From Lampropedia hyalina DSM 16112 (GTDB lineage: Bacteria; Pseudomonadota; Gammaproteobacteria; Burkholderiales; Burkholderiaceae_C): a DNA stretch of 40,731 bases. The notes beneath the pieces are model-generated. The model was not told the origin of the DNA, did not search any database, and saw only the letters and a list, made by a program, of their open reading frames with translations. Made by a program: the position numbers and the translations under genes. Below are positions 1-14,907 of the stretch, in pieces. Each line of letters starts with the position of its first letter. The stretch's first letter is position 1. The DNA lies in assembly GCF_900129055.1 (NCBI RefSeq), contig NZ_FQUZ01000030.1:1-40731 (forward strand), written 5' to 3'.

Positions 1-2
1 AC

Positions 3-1193
<1,191 letters not shown>

Positions 1194-1267
1194 TTCTATA
1201 CTCCGAAAGAAACTCAAACAAAAACAGATAAAGAAGCTTTCAGCACCGTGCCGAAACCTCAGAAAGA

Positions 1268-1342
<75 letters not shown>

Positions 1343-1378
1343 AGTCAGACCAACACAAAGCAAACCTGCACCCCAATC

Positions 1379-1452
1379 TGGAGCGGGAGACGGGAATCGA
1401 ACCCGCGTCATTAGCTTGGAAGGCTAAGGTTCTACCATTGAACTACTCCCGC
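1379..1452 (-). tRNA. tRNA-Gly (anticodon TCC)
   Basis: Minus-strand cloverleaf with acceptor stem GCGGGAG/CTCCCGC, anticodon loop CTTCCAA in a TTAGC/GCTAA stem (anticodon TCC), T-arm GGTTCGATTCC, discriminator T and an encoded CCA. It is the middle member of the Tyr-Gly-Thr tRNA cluster. Confidence 0.97.
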
Positions 1453-1514
1453 AAATTGCGTCGCGATCTTCAATTTGCAGATGCAGCACCGGCCAACTTT
1501 GTGCTTTCTCGAAC

Positions 1515-1600
1515 TGGTGGAGGGAGCTGGATTCGAACCAGCGTACTCGTAAGAGGACAGATTTACAGTCTGTTGCCTTTAACCACTCGGCCATCCCTCC
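1515..1600 (-). tRNA. tRNA-Tyr (anticodon GTA)
   Basis: An 86-base class II tRNA on the minus strand. Acceptor stem GGAGGGA/TCCCTCC, anticodon GTA in loop CTGTAAA, a long variable arm as expected for tRNA-Tyr, T-arm GGTTCGAATCC and an encoded CCA. It is the first gene of the tRNA-tuf unit, only about a dozen bases from the predicted -10 box. Confidence 0.97.
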
Positions 1601-1611
1601 GAAAGATCGTG

Positions 1612-1639
1612 ATTCTAGCACAGCATTTTTTGGCATAAA
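1612..1639 (-). promoter_or_regulatory. Sigma-70-type promoter of the tRNA-tuf unit
   Basis: Read on the minus strand, an extended -10 TGCTAGAAT (hexamer 1612-1617) lies just before tRNA-Tyr, with a weak -35 TTTATG at 1634-1639 and a 16-bp spacer. Transcription would start about 4-5 bases before the tRNA 5' end. The very good -10 and its position support the call. The -35 is poor. Confidence 0.55.
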
Positions 1640-1778
1640 CACAAAACCGGCATTTTTCTCGAATCGATGTACGCTTGCGGGTTGCCTCCCGCCGGAACGA
1701 TTTCCCCTACACTCCAAAACCTGTCTTTCACTCGCCATTCACGCCGCATTGGCACGTCGGCCTGCGGCTTCTCTTTCC

Positions 1779-4700
1779 ATGAATCTTCCCAAGTTCACCA
1801 CCGGCCAACGCTACACCCTGCCCATGCCCACCGGCTCTGCCGATGCCCTGCTGCTGAGCCAGCTGGCACTGCGCGAGCGAACCCAGGGGCGACGCACGGC
1901 CGTGGTGACGGCCGATACCAGCGATGCCCTGCGACTGTTGCGCGAAATGGCTTTCTTTGCTCCGGCACTGAAGCTGGTGCTGTTCCCCGACTGGGAAACA
2001 CTGCCCTACGACAGCTTCTCGCCGCACCAGGACCTCATCAGCGAGCGACTGGCCACGCTGTGGAGCATCCAGCAGGGCGAGGCCGATGTGCTGCTGATTC
2101 CGGCCACCACCGCGCTGTACCGGCTCGCACCACCGGAATTCCTGGCTGGCTACACCTTCCAGTTCCAGACCGGACAAACCCTCAACGAAACCAAACTCAG
2201 GGCACAACTGACGATGGCCGGCTACCAGCACGTCACCCAGGTGGTCAGCCCTGGTGAATATGCCGTGCGTGGGGGCCTGATCGACCTCTATCCCAACGGC
2301 TCCGAGCAGCCCTACCGCATCGACCTGTTCGACGACGAAATCGACTCCATCCGCACCTTCGATCCCGATACCCAGCGCAGCCAGCAGACCGTGCAGGAAA
2401 TCCGCCTGCTGCCGGGGCGGGAGTTCCCGATGGACGATGCAGCACGCACACGGTTTCGCAGCCGCTGGCGTGAGTTGCTGGAAGGCGACCCCACCAAAAG
2501 CCGCATCTACAAAGATATGGGCAATGGCATGGCCACGGCTGGCATCGAATACTACCTGCCGCTGTTCTTTGAAGACACGGCCACGGTGTTCGACTACCTC
2601 GGCCCGCAAACCACGCTGGTGCTGCATGGCCCGCTGGAAGACGCGCTGCAACGCTTCTGGCAGGACACCCAGGACCGTTACCGCCTGCTGCAACACGACG
2701 AGGAACGCCCCGCCCTGCCTCCAGCCACATTATTTTTGAGCAGCGAACAGTTCTACCAGTGCTGCAAGACGCTGGCGCAACTCTCACTGCGCCCACCCGC
2801 CGATGCAGCCAGTGCCGAAACCGCCAGCGCGCACAGTGCCGACTTCACCCCGCTGCCCGATGTATCGGCCATACGCGGTGCGGAAGACCCGCTGGCACGC
2901 CTGCAACAACATCTGCGCCACAGCCCCCACCGCATGCTGTTGCTGGCCGAAAGTGCGGGACGGCGCGAGAGCCTCAACGACTTCTTCCGCGCCAGCGGCC
3001 TGATTGCCCCGGCCTTCGACACCCTCCAGGAATTTCTGGACAGCGACGAGAAAACCGGCATTGCCACCAGCGCGTTGCAGCGCGGCTTTGCCTGGCCGGA
3101 TGCGGGCATCGAGTTCGTCACCGAGACCGAACTGTTCCACACCGCCCCCAGCAGCCGCAAGCGCAAACGCCATGAACAGGCCAGCGACATCGATTCCATC
3201 ATCAAGGACCTCGCCGAACTGAAAATCGGCGATCCGGTGGTGCATGCCCAGCACGGCATTGGTCGCTACCAGGGCCTCATCAACATGGACATGGGGCAAA
3301 AAAATCCCGACGGCAGCCCGGCATTGCAGGAGTTTCTGCACCTCGAATACGCGGGCGAAGCCGTGCTGTATGTGCCCGTCAGCCAGCTCCAGCAGATCAG
3401 CCGCTACAGCGGCGTGAGCGCGGAAGATGCGCCACTGCACAAGCTCGGCTCCGGCCAGTGGGAAAAGGCCCGGCGCAAGGCCGCCGAACAGGTGCGTGAC
3501 GTAGCGGCTGAATTGCTCAACATCTACGCGCGCCGTGCTGCACGGGTCGGCCACGCCTTCCGCCTCAGCGAAGCCGATTACGATGTGTTTGCCAAGGACT
3601 TCGGCTTTGAGGAAACACCCGACCAGCACGCCGCCATCCAGGCCGTTATCCACGACATGGTCAGCCCGCAGCCGATGGATCGACTCGTCTGCGGCGACGT
3701 GGGCTTTGGCAAGACCGAAGTCGCTCTACGCGCTGCTTTTGTCGCCGTCATGGGTGGCAAGCAGGTCGCTTTTCTTGCACCCACCACGCTGCTGGCCGAA
3801 CAGCACTACCAGACGCTGGTGGATCGCTTCTCCAAATGGCCAGTGAAGATTGCCGAGATGAGCCGGTTTCGCACCACCAAGGAGATCAACGCCGCAGCCA
3901 AGGGGCTGGCCGAAGGCACGGTGGACATTGTGGTGGGCACGCACAAGCTGCTGTCATCGAGCATCGACTTCAAGAACCTCGGCCTGCTCATCATCGACGA
4001 AGAACACCGCTTTGGCGTGCGCCACAAGGAGGCCATGAAAGCCCTGCGTGCCGAAGTGGACGTGCTCACGCTCACGGCCACGCCCATCCCGCGCACGCTG
4101 GGCATGGCACTCGAAGGCCTGCGCGACCTCAGCGTGATTGCCACCGCACCGCAAAAACGCCTGGCCATCAAGACCTTTGTGCGCAGTGAAGGCCAGAGCG
4201 TCATCCGCGAAGCCGTGCTGCGCGAACTCAAGCGCGGTGGGCAGGTGTACTTTCTGCACAACGAAGTCGAAACCATCGAAAACCGCCGCCAGGCACTCGA
4301 AGAAATCCTGCCCGAAGCACGCATTGCCATTGCCCACGGCCAGATGCCCGAGCGCGAACTGGAAAAAGTCATGCGCGAATTCGTCGCGCAACGCCACAAC
4401 CTGCTGCTGTGTTCCACCATCATCGAAACCGGCATCGACGTGCCCAGTGCCAACACCATCGTCATCAGCCGCGCCGACAAATTCGGCCTCGCCCAATTGC
4501 ACCAGTTGCGCGGGCGCGTGGGCCGCAGCCACCACCAGGCCTACGCCTACCTGATGGTGCCCGATGTGCAAAGCCTCACCAAGCAAGCCCAGCAACGCCT
4601 TGAAGCCATTCAGCAAATGGAAGAACTGGGCAGCGGCTTCTACCTGGCCATGCACGATCTGGAAATTCGCGGTGCTGGCGAAGTGCTGGGCGAACACCAG

Positions 4701-5252
4701 AGCGGCAACATGCTGGAAATCGGCTTCCAGCTCTACAACGAAATGCTGTCAGATGCCGTCAATGCCCTCAAGGCAGGCAAGGAACCTGACCTGCTGGCCC
4801 CGCTGGCCGCCGTCACCGAAATCAACCTGCACACCCCCGCCCTGCTGCCCAGCGACTACTGCGGCGACGTACACCTGCGCCTGTCGTTCTACAAACGGCT
4901 GGCCACCGCCAAGACCACCGACCAGGTGGATCTGCTGCTGGAAGAAATCGTCGATCGCTTCGGCAAACCGCCCGAGCAGGTGCAATCGCTCATCGATACC
5001 CACCGCCTGCGCATCCTCTGCGAACCTTACGGCGTACAAAAAGTCGATGCCGCACCGGGTGTCATCACCATCTCGTTCTGCCCCAACCCACCGGTGGAGC
5101 CGATGGCCATCATTCAAATGATCCAGAAGAACAAACACATCAGGCTGGCAGGCAACGACAAACTGCGCATCGAACGCGAACTGCCCAAGCTGAAAGACCG
5201 TGTACAGATGGTGCGGGATGTGCTGCGCAATTTGGGGCAGCCCATAACATAA
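1779..5252 (+). CDS. mfd: Transcription-repair coupling factor Mfd
   Basis: 1157 residues, the usual Mfd length. Mfd is the DNA translocase that removes RNA polymerase stalled at lesions and recruits UvrA for nucleotide excision repair. Visible parts are an N-terminal UvrB-like homology region, a CarD-like RNA polymerase interaction domain (GDPVVHAQHGIGRYQG near residue 482), a RecG-like helicase core with Walker A GDVGFGKTE near 640, motif II DEEH near 740 and motif III TATPIPRT near 767, then the C-terminal TRCF domain. I chose the ATG at 1779 because the family begins close to this point; an in-frame TTG at 1749 would add ten residues. No strong Shine-Dalgarno is seen. It is divergent from the tRNA-tuf unit, and no terminator is seen before the ATPase gene 40 bp downstream. 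Confidence 0.97.
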   Translation: MNLPKFTTGQRYTLPMPTGSADALLLSQLALRERTQGRRTAVVTADTSDALRLLREMAFFAPALKLVLFPDWETLPYDSFSPHQDLISERLATLWSIQQGEADVLLIPATTALYRLAPPEFLAGYTFQFQTGQTLNETKLRAQLTMAGYQHVTQVVSPGEYAVRGGLIDLYPNGSEQPYRIDLFDDEIDSIRTFDPDTQRSQQTVQEIRLLPGREFPMDDAARTRFRSRWRELLEGDPTKSRIYKDMGNGMATAGIEYYLPLFFEDTATVFDYLGPQTTLVLHGPLEDALQRFWQDTQDRYRLLQHDEERPALPPATLFLSSEQFYQCCKTLAQLSLRPPADAASAETASAHSADFTPLPDVSAIRGAEDPLARLQQHLRHSPHRMLLLAESAGRRESLNDFFRASGLIAPAFDTLQEFLDSDEKTGIATSALQRGFAWPDAGIEFVTETELFHTAPSSRKRKRHEQASDIDSIIKDLAELKIGDPVVHAQHGIGRYQGLINMDMGQKNPDGSPALQEFLHLEYAGEAVLYVPVSQLQQISRYSGVSAEDAPLHKLGSGQWEKARRKAAEQVRDVAAELLNIYARRAARVGHAFRLSEADYDVFAKDFGFEETPDQHAAIQAVIHDMVSPQPMDRLVCGDVGFGKTEVALRAAFVAVMGGKQVAFLAPTTLLAEQHYQTLVDRFSKWPVKIAEMSRFRTTKEINAAAKGLAEGTVDIVVGTHKLLSSSIDFKNLGLLIIDEEHRFGVRHKEAMKALRAEVDVLTLTATPIPRTLGMALEGLRDLSVIATAPQKRLAIKTFVRSEGQSVIREAVLRELKRGGQVYFLHNEVETIENRRQALEEILPEARIAIAHGQMPERELEKVMREFVAQRHNLLLCSTIIETGIDVPSANTIVISRADKFGLAQLHQLRGRVGRSHHQAYAYLMVPDVQSLTKQAQQRLEAIQQMEELGSGFYLAMHDLEIRGAGEVLGEHQSGNMLEIGFQLYNEMLSDAVNALKAGKEPDLLAPLAAVTEINLHTPALLPSDYCGDVHLRLSFYKRLATAKTTDQVDLLLEEIVDRFGKPPEQVQSLIDTHRLRILCEPYGVQKVDAAPGVITISFCPNPPVEPMAIIQMIQKNKHIRLAGNDKLRIERELPKLKDRVQMVRDVLRNLGQPIT

Positions 5253-5292
5253 GCTTGATAATCAGCCATCTTCATTTTGAAAGATCACTCAT

Positions 5293-6690
5293 ATGCTCAC
5301 CCACTTGCACATCAAGAATTTCAAGGCATGGAAAGACACTGGCCCCATACGGCTGGCCCCTCTGACCATCATCTTTGGTGCAAACAGTGCAGGCAAAAGC
5401 AGCCTGGGGCATCTGTTACTGGCACTCAAGCAAACCGTGCTTTCTGCCGACCGAAAACGCGCACTGCAACTGGGTGATGAAAACTCATTGGTTGATTTAG
5501 GAACATTCAAGGAATGTCTGCACCAGCACGATCTCAGCCAACCACTGGAGTTTGAGACTGGCTGGAAACTGCCTAACGATCTGATGATTGAAGACCCCAT
5601 CAACAACAATCAATTCACAGGCAACGAACTTTTTCTAAAAGTTTCCATGCTGGCCGATCACAATGAACAGCCCCGCATCCAGACGATGAACTACTCCTTG
5701 CGCCACCAGGGACAAGAAACACTTCAGATCACCTACCATCAGGACGCAAAAGGCAAGCCTGAAATCACCTCGACACAATATCAATTCACCCGCAATACCG
5801 GTCGGCCTTGGCCTTTGAATCACCCAGACAAGTTCTATCGTATTTCCGACCAAAGCCGGGCACGGTTTCAGAATGCCGAATTTCTCTCTGATCTGGCACT
5901 ACAGACCGAGGCCGCATTGAATGCCGTGGACTATCTTGGCCCATTGCGTGACCATCCCAAAAGAATTTACTCGTGGTCAGGAGAAACTCCCGACAGCGTG
6001 GGTGCGCGTGGTGAATTCACCGTAGCGGCCATTCTGGCAGCCACCCAACAGGGACGTAAACTCAACCGTGGGTATAGAAAACCACTGGAGCCTTTTGACC
6101 AATTCATTGCTCAATGGCTTAAACAATTGGGCATTATCGAGAGCTTTTCCGTCAAACCCGTAGCCGAAGGGCGCAAGGAATTTGAAGTGCTCGTCAAAAC
6201 CCACACCCAAGCCAGCGAGGTCAAAATCACCGACGTAGGCTTTGGCGTCTCGCAAATGCTGCCTGCACTGGTTCAGGCTTTTTATTGCCAGCCCCATTCC
6301 ACCGTATGGATGGAACAACCCGAAATTCACCTTCATCCCCAAGTTCAGGCGGAACTGGCCGATGTATTCATCTCAGCCACCACACAGGCTCGTGAAAACA
6401 AGAAGGAACGCCATGTGCAACTGATTGTAGAAAGCCATTCCGAACACTTTCTGAATCGGCTGCAACGCCGTGTCGCAGAGGGCATTATTTCTGCTGACGA
6501 TGTAGCTGTGTATTTCTGCCAACGCTCCCCATCCGGTGCCGAACTGCAACCCTTGCGGCTCAACATGTTTGGCGAAATCGAAAACTGGCCAGAAAACTTC
6601 TTCGGCGACGAAATGGCCGACATTGCCGCCCGTACCATTGCCGCCATGCGACGTAAACAGGCACTGGCCACACAAAGCCAGCAGCCATGA
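5293..6690 (+). CDS. AAA/ABC-type ATPase, DUF3696-like
   Basis: 465 residues, cytoplasmic. Walker A GANSAGKSS lies at residues 29-37, after the usual N-terminal beta-strand segment LHIKNFKAW. An ABC-signature-like VGFGVSQMLPAL lies at 315-326, Walker B with aromatic/acidic context VWMEQPEIHLHP at 338-349 and a switch-like VESHSEHFLNRL at 379-390. The tail has NWPENFFGDEMADI near 431-444, typical of proteins with a C-terminal DUF3696. These are OLD/RecF-like ATPases, several of which act in phage defence with a partner effector. No nuclease domain (such as TOPRIM) is visible here. Its stop overlaps the start of the PIN gene by 4 bp (ATGA), so the partner is probably that protein. It may be read through from mfd or use a weak GATAAT box near 5257. 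It looks somewhat lower in G+C than mfd. The exact function is unknown. Confidence 0.85.
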   Translation: MLTHLHIKNFKAWKDTGPIRLAPLTIIFGANSAGKSSLGHLLLALKQTVLSADRKRALQLGDENSLVDLGTFKECLHQHDLSQPLEFETGWKLPNDLMIEDPINNNQFTGNELFLKVSMLADHNEQPRIQTMNYSLRHQGQETLQITYHQDAKGKPEITSTQYQFTRNTGRPWPLNHPDKFYRISDQSRARFQNAEFLSDLALQTEAALNAVDYLGPLRDHPKRIYSWSGETPDSVGARGEFTVAAILAATQQGRKLNRGYRKPLEPFDQFIAQWLKQLGIIESFSVKPVAEGRKEFEVLVKTHTQASEVKITDVGFGVSQMLPALVQAFYCQPHSTVWMEQPEIHLHPQVQAELADVFISATTQARENKKERHVQLIVESHSEHFLNRLQRRVAEGIISADDVAVYFCQRSPSGAELQPLRLNMFGEIENWPENFFGDEMADIAARTIAAMRRKQALATQSQQP

Positions 6691-7226
6691 AAGCAGTGAT
6701 TGACACCAATGTGCTACTGGTCGCAAACGGCCAGCATCTGGAGGCTTCGCCCACCTGCATGATTGCCTGCATCGAACATCTGAAAGCCATGAAGCAGTCG
6801 GGCACTGTGGTCATAGACGATGGCCACCACATTCTGGGCGAATACCGCCATAAAACCCACCCCAATCAACCCAAAGGCACTGGTGATATTTTCCTGAAAT
6901 GGCTGCTGCAAAACCAAGGCAATATCCAGCGGGTACAGCAAGTCACCTTGCATGAAACAGAAGAAAACCGCTTCGCAGAATTTCCCGATGCCGCACTGGA
7001 AAATCTGTTCGACCCACCTGACAGAAAATTTGCCGCCACCGCCAACGCACACCCTGACAAGCCCCCTATCTGGCAAGCCGCAGACTGCAAATGGCTGGAC
7101 TGGTGGCCCACACTTGAAGCCCGAGGTATTGAAGTGAAATTTCTATGCCCGGATGATGTCTGTACCAGTTACCGCAAGAAATTCCCCAGGCTGCCACCTC
7201 CCACATTACCGCCCAAGGCAGCATGA
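6687..7226 (+). CDS. PIN-domain protein, probable ribonuclease
   Basis: 179 residues. The start VIDTNVLL carries the first PIN acidic residue (Asp6). Further acidic positions are Glu52 in HHILGEYRH, Asp112 in FDPPDRKFAAT and Asp133 in QAADCKW, so the metal-binding set of a PIN nuclease looks complete. PIN domains are Mg/Mn-dependent endonucleases that usually cut RNA. The C-terminal stretch to about residue 165 is longer than that of VapC toxins, and no small antitoxin gene precedes it. Instead it overlaps the upstream ATPase and the downstream RNA ligase by 4 bp each. I infer an RNase effector controlled by the ATPase. Substrate unknown. The PIN assignment is based on motif layout, not on a database search. 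Confidence 0.72.
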   Translation: MKAVIDTNVLLVANGQHLEASPTCMIACIEHLKAMKQSGTVVIDDGHHILGEYRHKTHPNQPKGTGDIFLKWLLQNQGNIQRVQQVTLHETEENRFAEFPDAALENLFDPPDRKFAATANAHPDKPPIWQAADCKWLDWWPTLEARGIEVKFLCPDDVCTSYRKKFPRLPPPTLPPKAA

Positions 7227-7915
7227 CCGATTTTTTCCGCTTCCCCAGCACCCCACATCTGGTTTGGTTGGGCACAGGCAAGCCGCGTGACGACAAAATT
7301 CTGTCACCCGATGAAGCCACCGCCCTGCTGACCGCAGACGTGGTCGTGGAAGAAAAAGTGGACGGAGCCAACCTGGGCTTCTCACTCACGCCTGACGCAC
7401 ACCTGCAAGTACAGAACCGCGGACAGTATCTACATGAACCATACAGCGGACAGTTTGCCCGCTTGCCACAATGGCTTGAACTGCACGGCGCAGCCCTTGC
7501 GGCAGCCTTGACCCCGAATATCATTCTTTTCGGTGAATGGTGCGCAGCGCGTCACTCGCTGGACTATGATCGCCTGCCCGACTGGTTGCTGGCATTTGAT
7601 GTGTACGACCGTACTGCAAAGCAATTCTGGAGCACAACCCGACGCAATAGGCTGGCAACCCAGGCCGGATTGGTCACCGTACCGCAAATCACCCGTGGCC
7701 ACACCACCGTGCCCCAACTGCAACAACTCATCGCCAGCACCTCCAGCCATTTCCGCAAGGGGCCATTGGAAGGTGTGGTGCTGCGCAGGGAATCAGCCCA
7801 TTGGTGCGATGCACGCGCCAAGCTGGTACGCCCTGACTTCACCCAGACCATCGACACCCATTGGCGCAACCGCATCATTCAGTGGAACCGGCTGGACTAC
7901 CCGCCCAGCCCTTGA
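7223..7915 (+). CDS. Minimal RNA ligase family protein
   Basis: 230 residues, a covalent nucleotidyltransferase. It has motif I EEKVDGANLG with the AMP-accepting Lys45, a conserved Arg in QNRGQYL near 66, motif III-like ILFGEWCAARHS (Glu105) followed by LLAFDVYD, motif IV LEGVVLRRE (Glu183) and motif V RAKLVRPDF (Lys200). The pattern fits the RNA_ligase (Rnl2-like) family, which joins 5'-phosphate and 3'-hydroxyl RNA ends using ATP. It does not fit NAD-dependent DNA ligase. Only about 30 residues follow motif V, so the protein is close to a bare catalytic domain without the C-terminal domain of T4 Rnl2. The start overlaps the PIN gene stop by 4 bp, and mod begins 11 bp after its stop. I infer that it seals RNA cut by the PIN protein or by an invader; this is untested. 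Confidence 0.85.
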   Translation: MTDFFRFPSTPHLVWLGTGKPRDDKILSPDEATALLTADVVVEEKVDGANLGFSLTPDAHLQVQNRGQYLHEPYSGQFARLPQWLELHGAALAAALTPNIILFGEWCAARHSLDYDRLPDWLLAFDVYDRTAKQFWSTTRRNRLATQAGLVTVPQITRGHTTVPQLQQLIASTSSHFRKGPLEGVVLRRESAHWCDARAKLVRPDFTQTIDTHWRNRIIQWNRLDYPPSP

Positions 7916-7926
7916 CCCAAACTCCC

Positions 7927-9837
7927 ATGACCACCTCCAAACATCCCTTCTTCACCGCCCCCAGCCCTGCCGCGCAGAAGCTGGAATTGTTGCGCGAGTT
8001 GTTTCCTGCTGCCGTGCAGACCGAGGCCGATGGGCACATTCGCGTCAATGCGGCGGCGATTCAGCAGGCACTCGACCCGGCCAACCCGGCAGGCATTCGG
8101 GTGGAAGAAGATGGGTATGAATTGCGCTGGGTGGGCAAGCGTGAGGCTTATCACACCGCCTTTGTGCCACCGCAGAAAATCGTGCAGCCCTTGCCGGCTG
8201 ACAGCACGAATTGGGACACCACCGGCAACCTGCTCATCAAGGGCGACAACCTGGATGCCCTCAAACTGCTGCGGCAGAGTTATTTTGGTGCGGTGAAGCT
8301 GATCTACATCGACCCGCCCTATAACACGCAAAGCGATGCCTTTATCTACCGAGACGATTTCAGCGTGAAACAAAGCGAGGTGCTGGCAGAGCTGGGCCAC
8401 AAAGCCGAAGATGTGGAATACATCCAGAACATCTACGGCGCGCGCACGCACAGCGGCTGGCTCAGCTTCATGTACCCGCGCCTGCTGCTGGCCAAGGATT
8501 TGCTGCGCGACGATGGCGTGATTTTCATCAGCATTGACGACAACGAGCAGGCGCAGTTGAAGCTGCTGTGTGATGAGGTGTTTGGGCAGGAGAATTTTGT
8601 TGCATCAATCGTTTGGAAAAAACGATCATCACCTGACCAGCGTGACACCATAGGAGCTGTTCACGACTGGATTCTTTGCTACACGAAGGACTCCACAAAA
8701 ATAAAAGAGGCTATTGGCAAAATTCCTTTGAGTCAGGAGCGCATAGAAGCGTTTTCCAATCCAGATCACGACCCTCGCGGTCCATGGGCTTCAGTAGACA
8801 TGACTGGAATGACTGGGCGAGCTACAAAAGATCAATATTTTTCAGTCACTCTGCCAAGCGGCAGAAAAATAACCCCTCCCCCTGGACGAAGTTGGGGTTT
8901 GATTGAAACAACATTCCTTGAATTAAAAGCAGATAACCGAATCTGGTTCGGATTTTCCGGTGACAACGTACCACGCATCAAACGCTTCCTAAGCGAGTCA
9001 GAAGGACAAGTCGTCCCGAGTTTTTGGGATATGTCGGAATGCGGTAGCAACGATGTCGCAAAAAAAGAACTTAACGCTCTGTTGGAACGGGCTGACGTTT
9101 TTGACACACCCAAACCTGTTGCGCTTATAAGCCGGATGCTAACCATTGGTACAGCTCAGATTAGAAACGACATCATCCTCGACTTCTTCGCCGGCAGCGG
9201 CACCACCGGCGAAGCCGTGATGCGCCTGAATGCCGAAGATGGCGGCCAGCGCCAATTCATTCTGGTGCAAATCCCCCAGCCCATCGACGCGAAAAAACAG
9301 CAGGAAGCGCACCGCTTCGTCACCGAGACACTGGGCAAGCCGGAAGCGACGATTTTCGAGATCACCGCCGAACGTCTGCGCCGCGCCGGAGCCAGAATCC
9401 ATGCAGAAAAGCCAGACGTGGACACGGGCTTTCGCGTGTTCGATCTGGTGGATGATCCCGACGCGCTGATCCTGCAAAAACCGTTGCAGGAGGCCACACA
9501 AGACGATCTGCGCACCTTGCAGCAAAGCATTGCCACGCCCCAGCCCGCGCAATTGCCCCGCATTCTGCACAACCTGCTGCTGGCCGAGGGCTTGCCGTTG
9601 TCCACACGCATGGCAACCATCCAGGGCGACGTGCTGTACCGTGCCGAAAACACGCTGTTCATCCTGCGCGATGCCGACACCGACGACATCCGCCCGCTGC
9701 TGAATGCAGCGCAAAACCCCGTCACCCACCTGAGCGTCTACGCGCCGTGGGTGCATGACAACAATTTCCTGCTGGGCCTGAAAACCATGCTGGAATCGCT
9801 GCACCTGTCGGAAGACCGGCTGCGGCTGCGGGGGTGA
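7927..9837 (+). CDS. mod: Type III restriction-modification methyltransferase (Mod)
   Basis: 636 residues. A beta-class N6-adenine/N4-cytosine methyltransferase with catalytic motif IV DPPYNT at residues 129-134, preceded by KGDNLDALKLL, and the AdoMet-binding motif I DFFAGSGTTGEA at about 419-430. Mod methylates one strand of an asymmetric site and also supplies target recognition for Res. The ATG at 7927 starts the typical N terminus; an in-frame TTG at 7861 lies inside the ligase gene. The region between the motifs (about nt 8595-9170, residues 223-415), where type III enzymes carry the target recognition domain, is visibly A+T-richer than both flanks, suggesting exchange of specificity. 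It is 11 bp downstream of the RNA ligase, so probably in the same operon. Its partner res follows after a repeat block. Confidence 0.93.
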   Translation: MTTSKHPFFTAPSPAAQKLELLRELFPAAVQTEADGHIRVNAAAIQQALDPANPAGIRVEEDGYELRWVGKREAYHTAFVPPQKIVQPLPADSTNWDTTGNLLIKGDNLDALKLLRQSYFGAVKLIYIDPPYNTQSDAFIYRDDFSVKQSEVLAELGHKAEDVEYIQNIYGARTHSGWLSFMYPRLLLAKDLLRDDGVIFISIDDNEQAQLKLLCDEVFGQENFVASIVWKKRSSPDQRDTIGAVHDWILCYTKDSTKIKEAIGKIPLSQERIEAFSNPDHDPRGPWASVDMTGMTGRATKDQYFSVTLPSGRKITPPPGRSWGLIETTFLELKADNRIWFGFSGDNVPRIKRFLSESEGQVVPSFWDMSECGSNDVAKKELNALLERADVFDTPKPVALISRMLTIGTAQIRNDIILDFFAGSGTTGEAVMRLNAEDGGQRQFILVQIPQPIDAKKQQEAHRFVTETLGKPEATIFEITAERLRRAGARIHAEKPDVDTGFRVFDLVDDPDALILQKPLQEATQDDLRTLQQSIATPQPAQLPRILHNLLLAEGLPLSTRMATIQGDVLYRAENTLFILRDADTDDIRPLLNAAQNPVTHLSVYAPWVHDNNFLLGLKTMLESLHLSEDRLRLRG

Positions 9838-9864
9838 ACGCGATGCCGTTTTTTGTCATGCTTC

Positions 9865-10093
9865 GTCATTCCATGCTCAACCCGGAATCCAGTGACGGCG
9901 TTTCCAATGGCTGCAACGGTTTCAAACGCAACCACCGCGCCACCTGGATTCCAGCCTGCGCGGGAATGACGGTGCAGTTTTCTCCCCGTCATTCCGGGCT
10001 TGACCCGGAATCCAGCGGCGGTGTCTCCAATGGCAGCAATAATTTCAAATGCAACCGCCGTGCCACCTGGATTCCCGCCTGCGCGGGAATGAC
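9865..10093 (+). repeat. Two tandem 106-bp palindrome-bounded repeats between mod and res
   Basis: Units at 9865-9970 and 9988-10093 are near copies. Each opens with GTCATTCC... GGAATCCAG and closes with CACCTGGATTCC... GCGGGAATGAC, so each can fold as a large hairpin. The 339-bp gap between mod and res holds nothing else recognisable except a partial third end (GCGGGAATGACGGG near 10106) and the res ribosome-binding site. Confidence 0.85.
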
Positions 10094-10176
10094 GGGACAG
10101 GGTGCGGGAATGACGGGAAGGGATGCAGCAATGCGTGGGGTGGTATTCAACCGAGTCGAGGCAGGGTGACTTTCTT

Positions 10177-13155
10177 ATGACCGTCCAATTCCAATACACC
10201 CGGCTGGCGCACCAGGCCGAGGCCGTGGAGAGTGTGGCGCAGGTGTTCACCGATGTGCGCTTTGTGGCCCCCACAGGCGCACAGGCGAACCCGGTATTCG
10301 TGCCGCATGAGGCGCAGAAAACCATCCGCGCCAATATCGAGCGCGTACGTGCTGCCAATGGCGTAACAGCGGGTGAGGTGCGGGTGGCACTCACCGCCAC
10401 GCCTGCCCTGTCGCTGGATGTGTTGATGGAAACCGGCACGGGCAAGACCTTCACCTTCATCGAGACGATGCACCGGCTCTACCGAGATCACCGAATTGCC
10501 AAGTTCATCGTGCTGGTACCCAGCAATGCGATCCGGCAGGGCACGCTGCGCAGTTTGCAGACGACAGCGGCATTTTTTGCGCGTGAATACGAGAACCAGA
10601 AAATCCGCGTGTTCGATTACTCGGGCAAGACGGTGGCGGGCTTCATCCATGCAGCGAATCAGGGCTGCATTTCGGTGCTGGTGGCCACCTATCAGTCGTT
10701 TGCGGGCGACAGCAAAATCATCAACAAACGCGGAGTGGAGGCCAATCTGTTCGGCCACGCCAAGAGTTACATGGAGGCTCTGGCGGCAATCCGGCCCGTG
10801 CTCATCATCGACGAGCCGCACCGCTTCGAGGGCAAGCAGACGCAGGAATATCTGACCCGGTTCAACCCGCTACTGACGCTTCGCTTTGGCGCGACCTTCA
10901 AGCAGGGCGAGTTCCGCAATCTGGTCTATACGCTGGACAGCCTGGAGGCATTCCGCCAGCGACTGGTCAAGGGCATCACGGTGGATACGGTGGGCACGGG
11001 CGCGGACATGGCGCAAACGCTCACCCTCACACAGGTGAGCGGCACGGCCAAGGAGCGCAAGGCAAGCGTGGCCTACCAGACGGCCAGTGGCAAGACGGCC
11101 ACCGCGCTGTTATATGCCAAGGACAATCTGGGCGAGGTGACGGGGCTGGCGTTTCTGAACGGGCATGTGGTGGAGAAAATCACCAAAAACGAGCTGACGT
11201 TCACGAATGGCTTCGCATTGCCGCTGGAGCAGCCCACGGGCTACGGGATGCTGGCCGATGAGGTGCAGTCCGAACTGGTGCGCCAAACCATTGCCAACCA
11301 TTTCGAACGCGAGGCGGCCTTGTTTGCGCGTGGCATCAAGGCCATCAGCCTGTTCTTCATCGATGCGGTACACAAGTACCTGCCCGAGGGTGGCCGGCCT
11401 GCGGTGCTGCGCGATTTGTTCGAGCAACACTACACAGCCGAATTGCAGAAAGTGCTGGCGCGTGCTGATCTGGAGGCCGATTACCGCGCCTATCTGGAGC
11501 GCACGGCCAGCGACATTGGCCGCATTCACAAGGGCTACTTTGCCCGTTCGCGCACGGAAAAAGGCGAGGAGGAGGCCATCAAACTCATCTTGCAAGAGAA
11601 GGAAAAGCTGCTGAGCTTCGATACCGATCTGCGCTTCATCTTCTCGATGTGGGCGTTGCAGGAGGGCTGGGACAACCCGAACGTGTTCACGCTGTGCAAG
11701 CTGGCCCCGAGCAACAGCAAGATCACCAAGCTGCAACAGATTGGCCGGGGTTTGCGGCTGGCGGTGAACCAGCAGTTGCAGCGCGTGCAGGCCGATGATG
11801 CGGCGTTTGACGAAATCAACGATCTGACGGTGGTGGTTCCGGCCAGTGAAGGCGATTTTGTGCGGGCCATTCAGAACGAAATCACCGCGCAGAGTGTGCG
11901 GCGCGTGGCGGCGACGTTTGATGATGCGGTGCTGGCCGAATACGGCATTGCCAGCAGCACGCGCCAGGCCAACAAGGTGCTGGATGCCTTGCTGGAAACC
12001 GGCCTCATTGCGCTGGACGACGACAGCGGCACGGCCACGTTGCTGTGGGAAAAGCCCCGCTATCAGGCCGAACGTGAACGCATTGCGGCAGCCTTGCAAC
12101 AGGTGCCAAATCTGCCGCCCGAAAGCACCGCCAACATGCTGCGCTATCTGGATGTCTATTACGAGGGCGCAGGGCAGGTCAAGGCCAAACCCGAGCGGCA
12201 AAAACCCACGCTGGCCATCAACCCGGCGCAGTTCGAGAAATTCCGCGATCTGTGGCAGAACCTCAACCGCGATGCCGTGCTGCGCTATGCCATCGACACC
12301 GAAAAACTCACCGACAAGGTGGTGGATGCGATTGGGCAATCCTTCCATGTGCAGCCGCTGTCGGTGACGACCACACGCACCACGGACGTGCAAGCGGTGA
12401 GCCAGGCGCACAGCACGCAGGTGCATTACACGGCCGTGCCGCAATCGGTCTTCACGCTGGCGGGCTTTGTGCGCGAGCTGGCCAACCAGACGCGGCTGGC
12501 CATGCACACCATCAGCGATATTTTGCGGCGTATGCCAGCCGACAAATTCGCACAGATTCGCCACAACGAACACCGTGCCCTGGCCACGCTGCGCGATCTG
12601 ATTGTGCGTTGCGTCCATGAACTGGTGGTGAATGAAGTGCGCTACGAACTGCGCGAAATCCGCGTGGAGACGGCATTGACCGACAAGGCCGGGCAGTTGC
12701 TCAAGACCATCCCGGTGGCCCTGTGCGGCGCGGAAACCCATGCCATTGGCAATCCTGCCGTGCGCGAACGCTCCCTTTACAATGCTGCGCTGATGCCGGT
12801 GGACAGCCAGATCGAGCGTGACACGGTGGACGAATCCAATCACCAGCAGATCACGGTGTTTGCCAAGCTGCCGCGCATTCACATTCCCACGCCGGTGGGC
12901 AACTACAACCCGGATTTTGGCTATGTGGTGTCGCAAGACGGCAAGGCACAGGCCCTGTATCTGGTGGTGGAAACCAAAGGCTACGACAGCGAGGCGGACA
13001 TTTCGCCGCGCGAGAGCTGGAAGATGGCCAGTGCCCGCCAGTTCTTTGCAGCCTTGCAGGAGCGTGGCGTACCCGTGCGCTATGCAGCCAAGACCAACCA
13101 CACCCAGTTGGCACAACTGCTGGCACAGATTGAGCGGACGACACACAAGGGCTGA
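10177..13155 (+). CDS. res: Type III restriction enzyme, Res subunit
   Basis: 992 residues. An SF2 ATPase with Walker A METGTGKTF at residues 84-92, motif II IIDEPHRF (Asp212), a LQEGWDNPNVF segment and motif VI QQIGRGLRL. A C-terminal PD-(D/E)XK nuclease is shown by NPDFGYV (Asp913) and VVETKGY (Glu932-X-Lys934). Res uses ATP hydrolysis after Mod binds an unmethylated site and cuts DNA a short distance away. The ATG at 10177 has the Shine-Dalgarno AGGGTGA at about 8 bases; the earlier in-frame ATG at 10123 has none and lies against the repeats. All key motifs appear intact. The repeats upstream may lower readthrough from mod, or res may have its own promoter. Confidence 0.93.
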   Translation: MTVQFQYTRLAHQAEAVESVAQVFTDVRFVAPTGAQANPVFVPHEAQKTIRANIERVRAANGVTAGEVRVALTATPALSLDVLMETGTGKTFTFIETMHRLYRDHRIAKFIVLVPSNAIRQGTLRSLQTTAAFFAREYENQKIRVFDYSGKTVAGFIHAANQGCISVLVATYQSFAGDSKIINKRGVEANLFGHAKSYMEALAAIRPVLIIDEPHRFEGKQTQEYLTRFNPLLTLRFGATFKQGEFRNLVYTLDSLEAFRQRLVKGITVDTVGTGADMAQTLTLTQVSGTAKERKASVAYQTASGKTATALLYAKDNLGEVTGLAFLNGHVVEKITKNELTFTNGFALPLEQPTGYGMLADEVQSELVRQTIANHFEREAALFARGIKAISLFFIDAVHKYLPEGGRPAVLRDLFEQHYTAELQKVLARADLEADYRAYLERTASDIGRIHKGYFARSRTEKGEEEAIKLILQEKEKLLSFDTDLRFIFSMWALQEGWDNPNVFTLCKLAPSNSKITKLQQIGRGLRLAVNQQLQRVQADDAAFDEINDLTVVVPASEGDFVRAIQNEITAQSVRRVAATFDDAVLAEYGIASSTRQANKVLDALLETGLIALDDDSGTATLLWEKPRYQAERERIAAALQQVPNLPPESTANMLRYLDVYYEGAGQVKAKPERQKPTLAINPAQFEKFRDLWQNLNRDAVLRYAIDTEKLTDKVVDAIGQSFHVQPLSVTTTRTTDVQAVSQAHSTQVHYTAVPQSVFTLAGFVRELANQTRLAMHTISDILRRMPADKFAQIRHNEHRALATLRDLIVRCVHELVVNEVRYELREIRVETALTDKAGQLLKTIPVALCGAETHAIGNPAVRERSLYNAALMPVDSQIERDTVDESNHQQITVFAKLPRIHIPTPVGNYNPDFGYVVSQDGKAQALYLVVETKGYDSEADISPRESWKMASARQFFAALQERGVPVRYAAKTNHTQLAQLLAQIERTTHKG

Positions 13156-13199
13156 CGCAAGCACCGCCGCATCCGCATGAAGAAATGAAAAAACGGTAT

Positions 13200-13229
13200 T
13201 TGACGGTCTGGTGATGGGCTGCCGATAAT
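13200..13229 (+). promoter_or_regulatory. Sigma-70-type promoter for the peptide-binding protein
   Basis: TTGACG at 13200-13205 and GATAAT at 13224-13229 with an 18-bp spacer, about 85 bp before the ATG at 13315. Both hexamers match consensus at five of six positions. Confidence 0.6.
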
Positions 13230-13314
13230 CGTTTGCAGATTGGTATGCCACGGGGTGGCTGCCGTGGCTGGAATTCATCGGGTAGATCAAGCATATGCGG
13301 GGGGAGGAGTCATC

Positions 13315-14907
13315 ATGAAACCATTCTGGGCGCGCACTTGGGTGCTGGCCGCTACGCCTGTGGTGGCGTGGAGCATTGCCAGCAGTGCCTATTCACAGGC
13401 TCAGGAGCCGGTGCGTGGCGGGGTCTTCACCTATGTGGTGGCGCAGGAGCCGACCACGCTGGTGTCGTTCCTGGATACCAAGACGGACAATCGCAACCCC
13501 AGTGCCAAGGTCACGGAAGGGCTGTTGCGCTACGATCTTCAGTTCCGGCCACAGCCTCTGCTGGCGACCGAATGGAACGTCAGTCCAGATGGTCTGCGCT
13601 ATAGCTTCAAGCTGCGCGAGGGCGTGAAATTCCATGACGGCAGCGATTTCACGTCGGCGGATGTGCGCTATTCCATCCTGAAGCAGAAGGAACTGGGGCC
13701 GCGCGGTCGCATCACCTTTGCGAATGTGACGGATGTGAAAACGCCCGATGCGCACACCGCCACCATCGTGCTGCAAAAGCCTGCCCCCTATCTGCTCAAC
13801 GCCCTGTCGTCGGCAGAAACGCCGATTGTGTCTGCGCGGCGTTATGGCAATGCAGACCCGCTCTCGCACGCCAATACCAACCATCCGATCGGCACCGGGC
13901 CTTTCGTGTTCAGGGAGTGGGTCAAGGGCAGTCACGTCGTGCTGGAAAGGAACCCGCACTACTGGCGGGACGGCTACCCGTATCTGGACCGCGTGATCTA
14001 TCGCTTCATCAAGAATGCCGCGTCCATCTCGGCAGCAATCGAGGCCGGTGAGGTCAATGCCGCTTTGAATGTGGCGATTGCCGACATCGACCGCCTGGCG
14101 AAGAACCCGAAACTGGCGGTGGACGATACCTACGATGCCTTCCTCAACAACGCGCTGTTTCTGGAATTCAACCACCAGAACCCAGTTCTGGCGCATGAGA
14201 AGGTACGCCATGCGATTGCCCATGCCTTCGACCGGAACTTCATTGCCAATCAGGTTTATTACCAGCGTTCCCAGGTCGTTCAGTCCCCCATTCCGGCAAT
14301 CCTGACCGACTATTACGATGACAGCACGTTCACCTATTCGCACAATGTCGAAAAGGCCAATGCCCTGCTGGATGCAGCGGGCTTCCCGCGCAAGGGCAAT
14401 GCCCCCCGGTTCGAGCTGCGTCTGAGCTTCCTGCCTTCGGCGGATTTCAAGCGGGCGGCGGAGTACATTCGCGCCTCGCTCAACCGCGTGGGCATCAAGG
14501 TGGAGATTCTTGATGGCGATCTGCCCACCTTCCTGAACCGGGTCTACAAGGAGCGTGGTTTCGATCTGAATGTGAATGGCCTTGGCCGCCTGTTCGACCC
14601 GACCGTGGGCGTGCAGCGCATTTACTGGTCGGATGCCATCCAGAATCCGATTCCCTGGGTCAATGCCTCGCACTACCACAATCCCCGCGTGGATGAATTG
14701 TTCCGTGCGGCCAGTGTGGAAACCGACCAGGCACAACGGGCAGCACAGTTCAAGGAAATCCAGCAGATCGTAGGCCGCGAATTGCCAGTGCTGCCGCTGG
14801 TGACCGTGCCGTCTGCGCTACAGGTGTACCAGAAGCGTGTCCACAATCTCAACAACAGCGTGGACCTCACCGCAGGCGACTGGTCTGACCTGTGGCTGGA
14901 ACCCTGA
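13315..14907 (+). CDS. ABC transporter solute-binding protein, family 5 (peptide/nickel type)
   Basis: 530 residues. The N terminus MKPFWARTWVLAATPVV...SAYSQAQ is a Sec signal peptide, so the mature protein is periplasmic. The body matches the SBP family 5 pattern: an early LVSFLDTKT...VTEGLLRYD, then EWNVSPDGLRYSFKLREGVKFHD, then a VRHAIAHAFDR segment. Such proteins capture oligopeptides, nickel-chelates or similar ligands for an ABC permease. The ATG at 13315 has a strong GGGGAGGAG ribosome-binding site and its own promoter. No permease or ATPase genes of the opp/dpp type are next to it, so it is an orphan receptor here and its ligand cannot be told. Confidence 0.92.
   Translation: MKPFWARTWVLAATPVVAWSIASSAYSQAQEPVRGGVFTYVVAQEPTTLVSFLDTKTDNRNPSAKVTEGLLRYDLQFRPQPLLATEWNVSPDGLRYSFKLREGVKFHDGSDFTSADVRYSILKQKELGPRGRITFANVTDVKTPDAHTATIVLQKPAPYLLNALSSAETPIVSARRYGNADPLSHANTNHPIGTGPFVFREWVKGSHVVLERNPHYWRDGYPYLDRVIYRFIKNAASISAAIEAGEVNAALNVAIADIDRLAKNPKLAVDDTYDAFLNNALFLEFNHQNPVLAHEKVRHAIAHAFDRNFIANQVYYQRSQVVQSPIPAILTDYYDDSTFTYSHNVEKANALLDAAGFPRKGNAPRFELRLSFLPSADFKRAAEYIRASLNRVGIKVEILDGDLPTFLNRVYKERGFDLNVNGLGRLFDPTVGVQRIYWSDAIQNPIPWVNASHYHNPRVDELFRAASVETDQAQRAAQFKEIQQIVGRELPVLPLVTVPSALQVYQKRVHNLNNSVDLTAGDWSDLWLEP

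Follow-up and report, generated by a model that had tools for sequence, protein, structure and literature searches.

What could an RNA ligase contribute to an operon that also encodes an ATPase and a nuclease? The question is raised by three genes at positions 5293–7915 of contig NZ_FQUZ01000030.1 (assembly GCF_900129055.1) of Lampropedia hyalina DSM 16112; the window, by which we mean the whole stretch of DNA analysed, is 40,731 nt long. A previous sequence-only reading of this DNA had described three genes joined by two 4-base-pair ATGA overlaps and had proposed a possibly undescribed system; on one of its readings an ATPase gates an RNase and a ligase provides the repair arm. The gene arrangement is confirmed from the sequence, as follows:

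5293–6690, + strand: OLD/ABC-class ATPase, AAA_15 with a C-terminal DUF3696 domain (Pfam; PADLOC, HEC-03B and more weakly NsnB; motifs; conservation)
6687–6690, + strand: ATGA overlap between the ATPase and PIN genes (sequence)
6687–7226, + strand: PIN-fold nuclease with Asp6, Glu52, Asp112 (and Asp109) and Asp133 (PADLOC, HEC-03A)
7223–7226, + strand: ATGA overlap between the PIN and ligase genes (sequence)
7223–7915, + strand: ATP-dependent RNA ligase of 230 residues, nucleotidyltransferase domain only (motifs EEKVDG, LFGEW, LEGVV and RAKLV)

We propose, with a probability of about one half, that the three genes make up a defence module in which an ATPase gates RNA cutting and a resealing arm is built in.

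The trio is a real and widespread unit. A search with the ligase in one genome per species gave 390 relatives, the best 80 of which were taken as loci (L001, L002 and L007 are the window itself, fetched three times). Among these best 80, a PIN gene on the same strand, always of one family, lies directly upstream of the ligase gene in 76 and the full trio is found in 72, counting L092, where the ATPase gene is 1.4 kb from the PIN gene, and L030–L032 and L085, where the ATPase profile match is partial in its first domain. The other eight comprise two loci cut by a contig end (L064 and L089), two with PIN and ligase (L079 and L081) and four with the ligase alone (L069, L074, L083 and L090). The exact four-base overlap recurs at 47 of the 71 measurable ATPase/PIN junctions and at 45 of 71 PIN/ligase junctions. 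The 75 loci used for trees come from Pseudomonadota, Acidobacteriota, Myxococcota, Verrucomicrobiota, Thermodesulfobacteriota, Nitrospirota, Cyanobacteriota and one Chloroflexota metagenome-assembled genome, the last perhaps through a binning error, because its ligase hardly differs from one of Piscinibacter. The trio is also complete in three of the six plasmid loci opened, one of them from an actinomycete.

Searches blind to the ligase were carried out with the HEC-03A model (with matches in 12 of the 399 genomes searched from the order and in 6 of 369 from the class) and with the PIN alignment (15 of 398 genomes of the phylum), giving 27 distinct genomes with the PIN family, the window's genome included. 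The ATPase gene adjoins the PIN gene in all 27, and the ligase gene does so in 20. Six genomes (G168, G048, G508, G448, G1025 and G863) have no ligase within the approximately 1.5 kb fetched, and in G131 a contig end cuts off the stretch next to the PIN gene, a ligase lying beside a PIN fragment on another contig. A whole-genome search of four of the six found no ligase of the family in three (one of these genomes being 88% complete) and a distant one in G168. The ATPase–PIN pair is thus the constant core and the ligase the usual third part. Repeated adjacency of PIN and ligase genes in unrelated genomes, which the sequence-only reading had named as a check, is borne out in both sets.

Are the three proteins likely to be active? 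In the counts that follow, L002, L003, L004, L005, L007 and fragments covering 60% of the model or less are excluded. The ATPase, in which a DUF3696-type C terminus had been recognized on an OLD-like protein, is indeed assigned AAA_15 and DUF3696 by Pfam. It matches the PADLOC model HEC-03B over positions 1–455 of 458 (446 bits, 4e-134), and also NsnB (1.5e-59) and AriA (3.7e-24). It contains the blocks GANSAGKSS (with Lys35) and MEQPEIHLHP, which we take to be Walker A and a Walker B-like block, respectively; Lys35 is kept in 78 of 79 relatives, and Glu341, Glu344 and His382 in all 79. The PIN gene, which adjoins that of the ATPase, matches HEC-03A over positions 1–157 of 159 (101 bits, 1.5e-29). 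The acidic site that had been called complete (Asp6, Glu52, Asp112 and Asp133) is kept throughout the family (Asp6 and Glu52 in 86 of 87 relatives, Asp112 in 87 and Asp133 in 85), as is Asp109 (87 of 87). Structure prediction, another check named earlier, gives a PIN fold, with VapC toxins as the nearest known folds. The alignments behind the structure models took 56 PIN rows and 45 ligase rows of those found.

The ligase carries motifs I to V of an ATP-dependent RNA ligase (PF09414, Rnl2-like), as had been noted; we take EEKVDG, LFGEW, LEGVV and RAKLV to be motifs I, III, IV and V, respectively. Lys45, Asp47, Gly48, Arg66, Glu105, Glu183, Gly184 and Lys200 are each found in 88 of 88 relatives. 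Its model is closest to nick-sealing RNA ligases, and the nucleotidyltransferase fold is nearer to RNA than to DNA ligases. The C-terminal domain of Rnl2 proper was not found: the model aligns just to Rnl2 residues 1–233 (1s68) or 0–266 (2hvq), and beyond residue ∼200 it is a lower-confidence tail. The ligase matches none of the PADLOC models. Taken together, the near-invariant catalytic residues argue for selection that keeps catalysis in the ATPase, the PIN nuclease and the ligase.

How tightly are the three parts bound to each other? Distance tests were run on 75 complete loci, rows covering less than 85% of the model being dropped. The correlation is 0.90 between ATPase and PIN, 0.21 between ATPase and ligase and 0.22 between PIN and ligase. 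The loci form two lineages (45 and 30 loci), between which the ATPases are 35% and the PIN nucleases 27% identical; the ligases are 58% identical between lineages, compared with 58–59% within them. The lineage label changes once on the ATPase tree, once on the PIN tree and 19 times on the ligase tree, five of these changes being forced by well supported branches of trees of the ‘quick’ kind, in which branch support is less trustworthy. As 17 of 500 shuffles gave as few as 19 changes on the ligase tree, the label is slightly clustered there. The 20 ligase-blind loci give 0.94 for ATPase–PIN and 0.42 and 0.44 for the ligase correlations, so the pattern is not a product of the ligase-based choice of loci. 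To judge from these sequences, the ligase has been exchanged between two deeply separated ATPase–PIN lineages and is no lineage-specific partner. Within the lineages, the ligase correlates with its partners at r values of 0.56–0.79 and ATPase–PIN at 0.45 and 0.76, and a free, independent ligase cassette would be too strong a description because, inside each lineage, ligase distances follow those of its partners. We read this as a matched ATPase–PIN pair with a ligase that would be co-inherited in the short term, exchangeable in the long term and acting via a shared RNA product.

A different middle gene had at one point been considered for loci whose ATPase is only approximately 30–35% identical, as a BLAST screen missed the PIN gene there; a profile search and the sequences themselves show a divergent PIN. 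A direct pair comparison is weak (E = 0.005).

How might such a module work? The ABC-class ATPase would hold the PIN nuclease in check or act as a sensor, and an infection signal would release the nuclease, which would then cut cellular RNA and halt growth; tRNA as the target is a guess. PIN cleavage leaves 3′-OH and 5′-phosphate ends, and nick-sealing ligases of the Rnl2/REL type join such ends without a kinase or a phosphatase. Because these ends suit such ligases directly, the ligase could mop up leaky PIN cuts and reset surviving cells. We infer the sensing, the RNA target, the direction of action and the repair by the ligase of cuts made by PIN itself. Since the ATPase–PIN pair also occurs without a ligase, the ligase would be a reset or damage-limiting arm; an obligatory antitoxin or antidote is ruled out as a general rule. 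No recurring healing enzyme is found among the neighbour families listed for the trio, unlike in the plasmid AAA_33 pairs described below, and this fits ends that need no healing. Within the earlier proposal, an ATPase-gated RNase with a ligase repair arm fits best with the conserved trio, the intact sites, the folds and the restriction-modification neighbours; the ligase has proved neither obligatory nor lineage-specific.

Several points weigh against this reading. Within each lineage, the ligase follows both partners about as closely as they follow each other, and so is not simply an independent cassette. The six of 27 genomes without a nearby ligase indicate that resealing is not essential, and the ligase may do other work, because four of the 80 loci have it alone and two have PIN and ligase without the ATPase, with no contig edge. 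The PIN nuclease could instead have DNA or the RNA of an invader as its substrate, and the resealing argument depends on the PIN end chemistry given above. In favour of direct resealing, a kinase-like AAA_33 profile matched none of 572 neighbour genes within ∼6 kb, and no recurring kinase or phosphatase family is seen among the Pfam families listed (25 of 43 for 65 upstream neighbours and 25 of 74 for 72 downstream neighbours). The profile, however, was built from only two proteins and may overlook healing enzymes unrelated to them.

We may also wonder whether the trio repairs RNA instead of attacking it: the ATPase would sense broken RNA, PIN would trim it to 5′-phosphate and 3′-OH ends and the ligase would seal it, as a guard against phage or host RNases. 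The greater conservation of the ligase (mean column identity of 63%, a value inflated by the ligase-based choice of loci, versus 40% for PIN), the four lone ligases and the repair-like pairing of distant relatives with kinase-like AAA_33 proteins speak for such a module. We nevertheless consider it unlikely, given that six of 27 genomes have the ATPase–PIN pair without a nearby ligase, that trimming would delete bases and that the ATPase relatives HEC-03B, NsnB and AriA are listed by PADLOC as defence proteins. Alternatively, the cuts reversed by the ligase may be those made in anticodons by unrelated toxins or by enzymes of phages, with the ligase merely travelling alongside an ATPase–PIN defence. 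Its exchange between the two lineages (19 label changes, five forced, versus one and one) would suit this, yet the four-base overlaps in most measured loci and the co-variation within lineages argue for a shared pathway; moreover, the ends left by PrrC need a kinase/phosphatase, according to passages of PMC3506569, and no such gene was seen recurring among the listed neighbour families. This makes the alternative distinctly improbable.

A third role would be to cut, remove and reseal, with PIN cutting twice and the ligase closing the gap, giving a shortened RNA that phage ligases could not mend; we hold this to be very unlikely, as nothing points to two cuts and in some genomes the pair, if functional at all, does without a ligase. 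Action of PIN and ligase on DNA or RNA–DNA nicks, as an accessory to the neighbouring restriction system, has a slimmer chance still. Chance adjacency without joint function is ruled out by the 72 of 80 loci in several phyla and the 20 of 27 ligase-blind genomes, and its probability is practically nil. A phage origin of the trio was likewise rejected: only one of 23 loci on viral contigs is complete (L142), the others having the ligase only and L140 being cut at its start.

If the gated and resealable RNase holds, what would it mean? The usual view is that a defence RNase leads one way, to suicide, and that RNA ligases are what the phage sets against it. Some abortive responses would then be built for reversal, with cutter and sealer in one widespread bacterial operon, and the matching end chemistry makes this idea directly testable. 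More tentatively, and with somewhat less than an even chance, the trio could be a reversible immune system, in which one operon with sensor, RNase and ligase stops and restarts translation without end-healing; in its boldest form PIN would excise a piece, the ligase would reseal and the host RNA would be edited to be phage-proof. The trio would also supply a compact, nucleotidyltransferase-only family of RNA ligases with invariant active sites.

How does the trio compare with known systems? HEC reportedly stands for Hma-embedded candidate, from a 2024 preprint by Payne and coworkers. The window ATPase and PIN nuclease match both models of the PADLOC candidate HEC-03 over near-full length, as judged by score and coverage, and the strongest HEC-03A matches, G168 (251 bits) and G1025 (206 bits), share the ATPase/PIN order of the trio. 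These two, however, have no nearby ligase, and the window PIN scores far lower on HEC-03A. PARIS combines AriA, an OLD-ABC ATPase, with AriB, a TOPRIM nuclease that cuts tRNA. The trio resembles it in having an ABC ATPase, which matches AriA, and a separate RNase effector, but the effector is PIN and not TOPRIM (the PIN gene has no AriB or TOPRIM match in Pfam or PADLOC) and there is an added ligase. Nick-sealing ligases such as Naegleria RNA ligase, T4 Rnl2 and trypanosome REL1 share the nucleotidyltransferase fold and motifs, while the window ligase lacks a second domain and is operon-linked to a likely cutter. Menshen includes a DUF262 gene and a nuclease predicted to be of the OLD type (according to PMC10952713); the window ATPase matches its NsnB, but the partners NsnA and NsnC are lacking, the PIN nuclease matching HEC-03A alone and the ligase no Nsn model in PADLOC. 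T4 Pnk and Rnl1, acting against PrrC, show a phage RNA ligase undoing RNase cleavage (passages of PMC3506569 and PMC12409363). There the phage does the repair; in the present case the nuclease and the ligase are encoded in a single operon, beside which no end-healing enzyme was seen.

The claim of an undescribed system therefore stands in part. The ATPase–PIN pair is already known: both members match the HEC-03 candidate (several HECs were active, HEC-06 being named, according to PMC12988326), and PMC12839542, from the main text of which the term RNA ligase is absent, reports that in BREX and its relatives an OLD-ABC ATPase paired with a PIN RNase serves as a back-up effector. We found no publication linking a ligase to an ATPase–PIN pair, in a search that left out likely surveys, which may already list the trio. 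As the pair matches HEC-03 and the ligase has neither a PADLOC match nor a paper found, the trio would be a known kind of system with a new part, and only the ligase addition is possibly new.

Where does the trio sit? Directly downstream in the window is a type III restriction-modification system, the methylase gene of which begins 11 bases beyond the stop codon of the ligase gene:

7927–9837, + strand: type III methylase (Mod), outside the trio (PADLOC MTase_III, 4.7e-167)
10180–13155, + strand: type III restriction enzyme (Res), a neighbour (PADLOC REase_III, 2.7e-136; Pfam RE_endonuc, 2.7e-28, and ResIII, 1.6e-18)

At the other loci, the 65 upstream neighbours include at least eight type IIG restriction enzymes, four proteins with ResIII and two type I specificity subunits, and the 72 downstream neighbours include four HNH proteins, four with DEAD and three with ResIII, single members matching many defence models; the PADLOC counts are lower bounds, because the tables are by family and do not merge the genes matched. 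Large methylase-type proteins that form one cluster occur in 13 of 80 loci; nine of the 14 genes of this cluster are upstream, at most 17 bases from the trio. Many neighbours are ordinary metabolic genes. None of 68 control genes matched PADLOC at 1e-15, the control being 18 stretches of related, different genomes with a mean protein length of 299 residues, compared with 535 upstream and 426 downstream, which favours the neighbours. By their annotated families, trio neighbours are enriched in restriction-modification genes.

The gene mfd is found in ten of ten genomes of the genus, and the trio adjoins it solely in the window's genome; it is absent from the 1.3–1.5 kb fetched beyond mfd in the other nine, in which a ligase search gave a single match, 38% identical (G002). 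The G+C content is 51–55% over most of the trio and 58% at its end, versus 61–62% in mfd. The trio thus looks like a mobile, defence-associated insertion. No promoter-like site on the + strand was seen upstream of the ATPase gene (5150–5293), and Rfam at gathering scores gave just three tRNAs, and no non-coding RNA partner, in window positions 1–14000.

Some further observations concern relatives of the ligase. AAA_33 includes polynucleotide kinases. Distant RNA ligases on Pseudomonas plasmids (L137:4956–6974 and L139:2385–4681) form two-gene pairs with AAA_33 proteins, one with an HD domain; both of the two distant plasmid ligases examined have this partner, resembling end-healing plus sealing pairs. 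Two lone family ligases, without ATPase or PIN (L069:5334–6672 and L083:5350–6672), have a divergent gene at a distance of 44 and 133 bases, respectively; it encodes a macro-domain protein in L069 and a relative of that protein in L083. On the Acidithiobacillus caldus plasmid (L138:7001–7153) the last ∼50 ligase residues are matched, adjoining a large N-6 DNA methylase and an HNH endonuclease. After the trio of an Aeromonas salmonicida plasmid come a recombinase and a metallophosphoesterase–GASH gene set (L134:8851–15672), and after that of a Rhodococcus plasmid, within ∼600 bases, a CAP12/Pycsar-type TIR-domain gene (L136:9280–10161).

Finally, within the window, two tandem 114-base repeats (84% alike) lie at 9864–10100, in the stretch that separates mod from res in the type III system; the exact 27-base core motif of the repeats has just three copies genome-wide, two of them here. 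A peptide-binding transporter protein at 13315–14904 has ten matches in its own genome, itself included, and so belongs to an expanded family.
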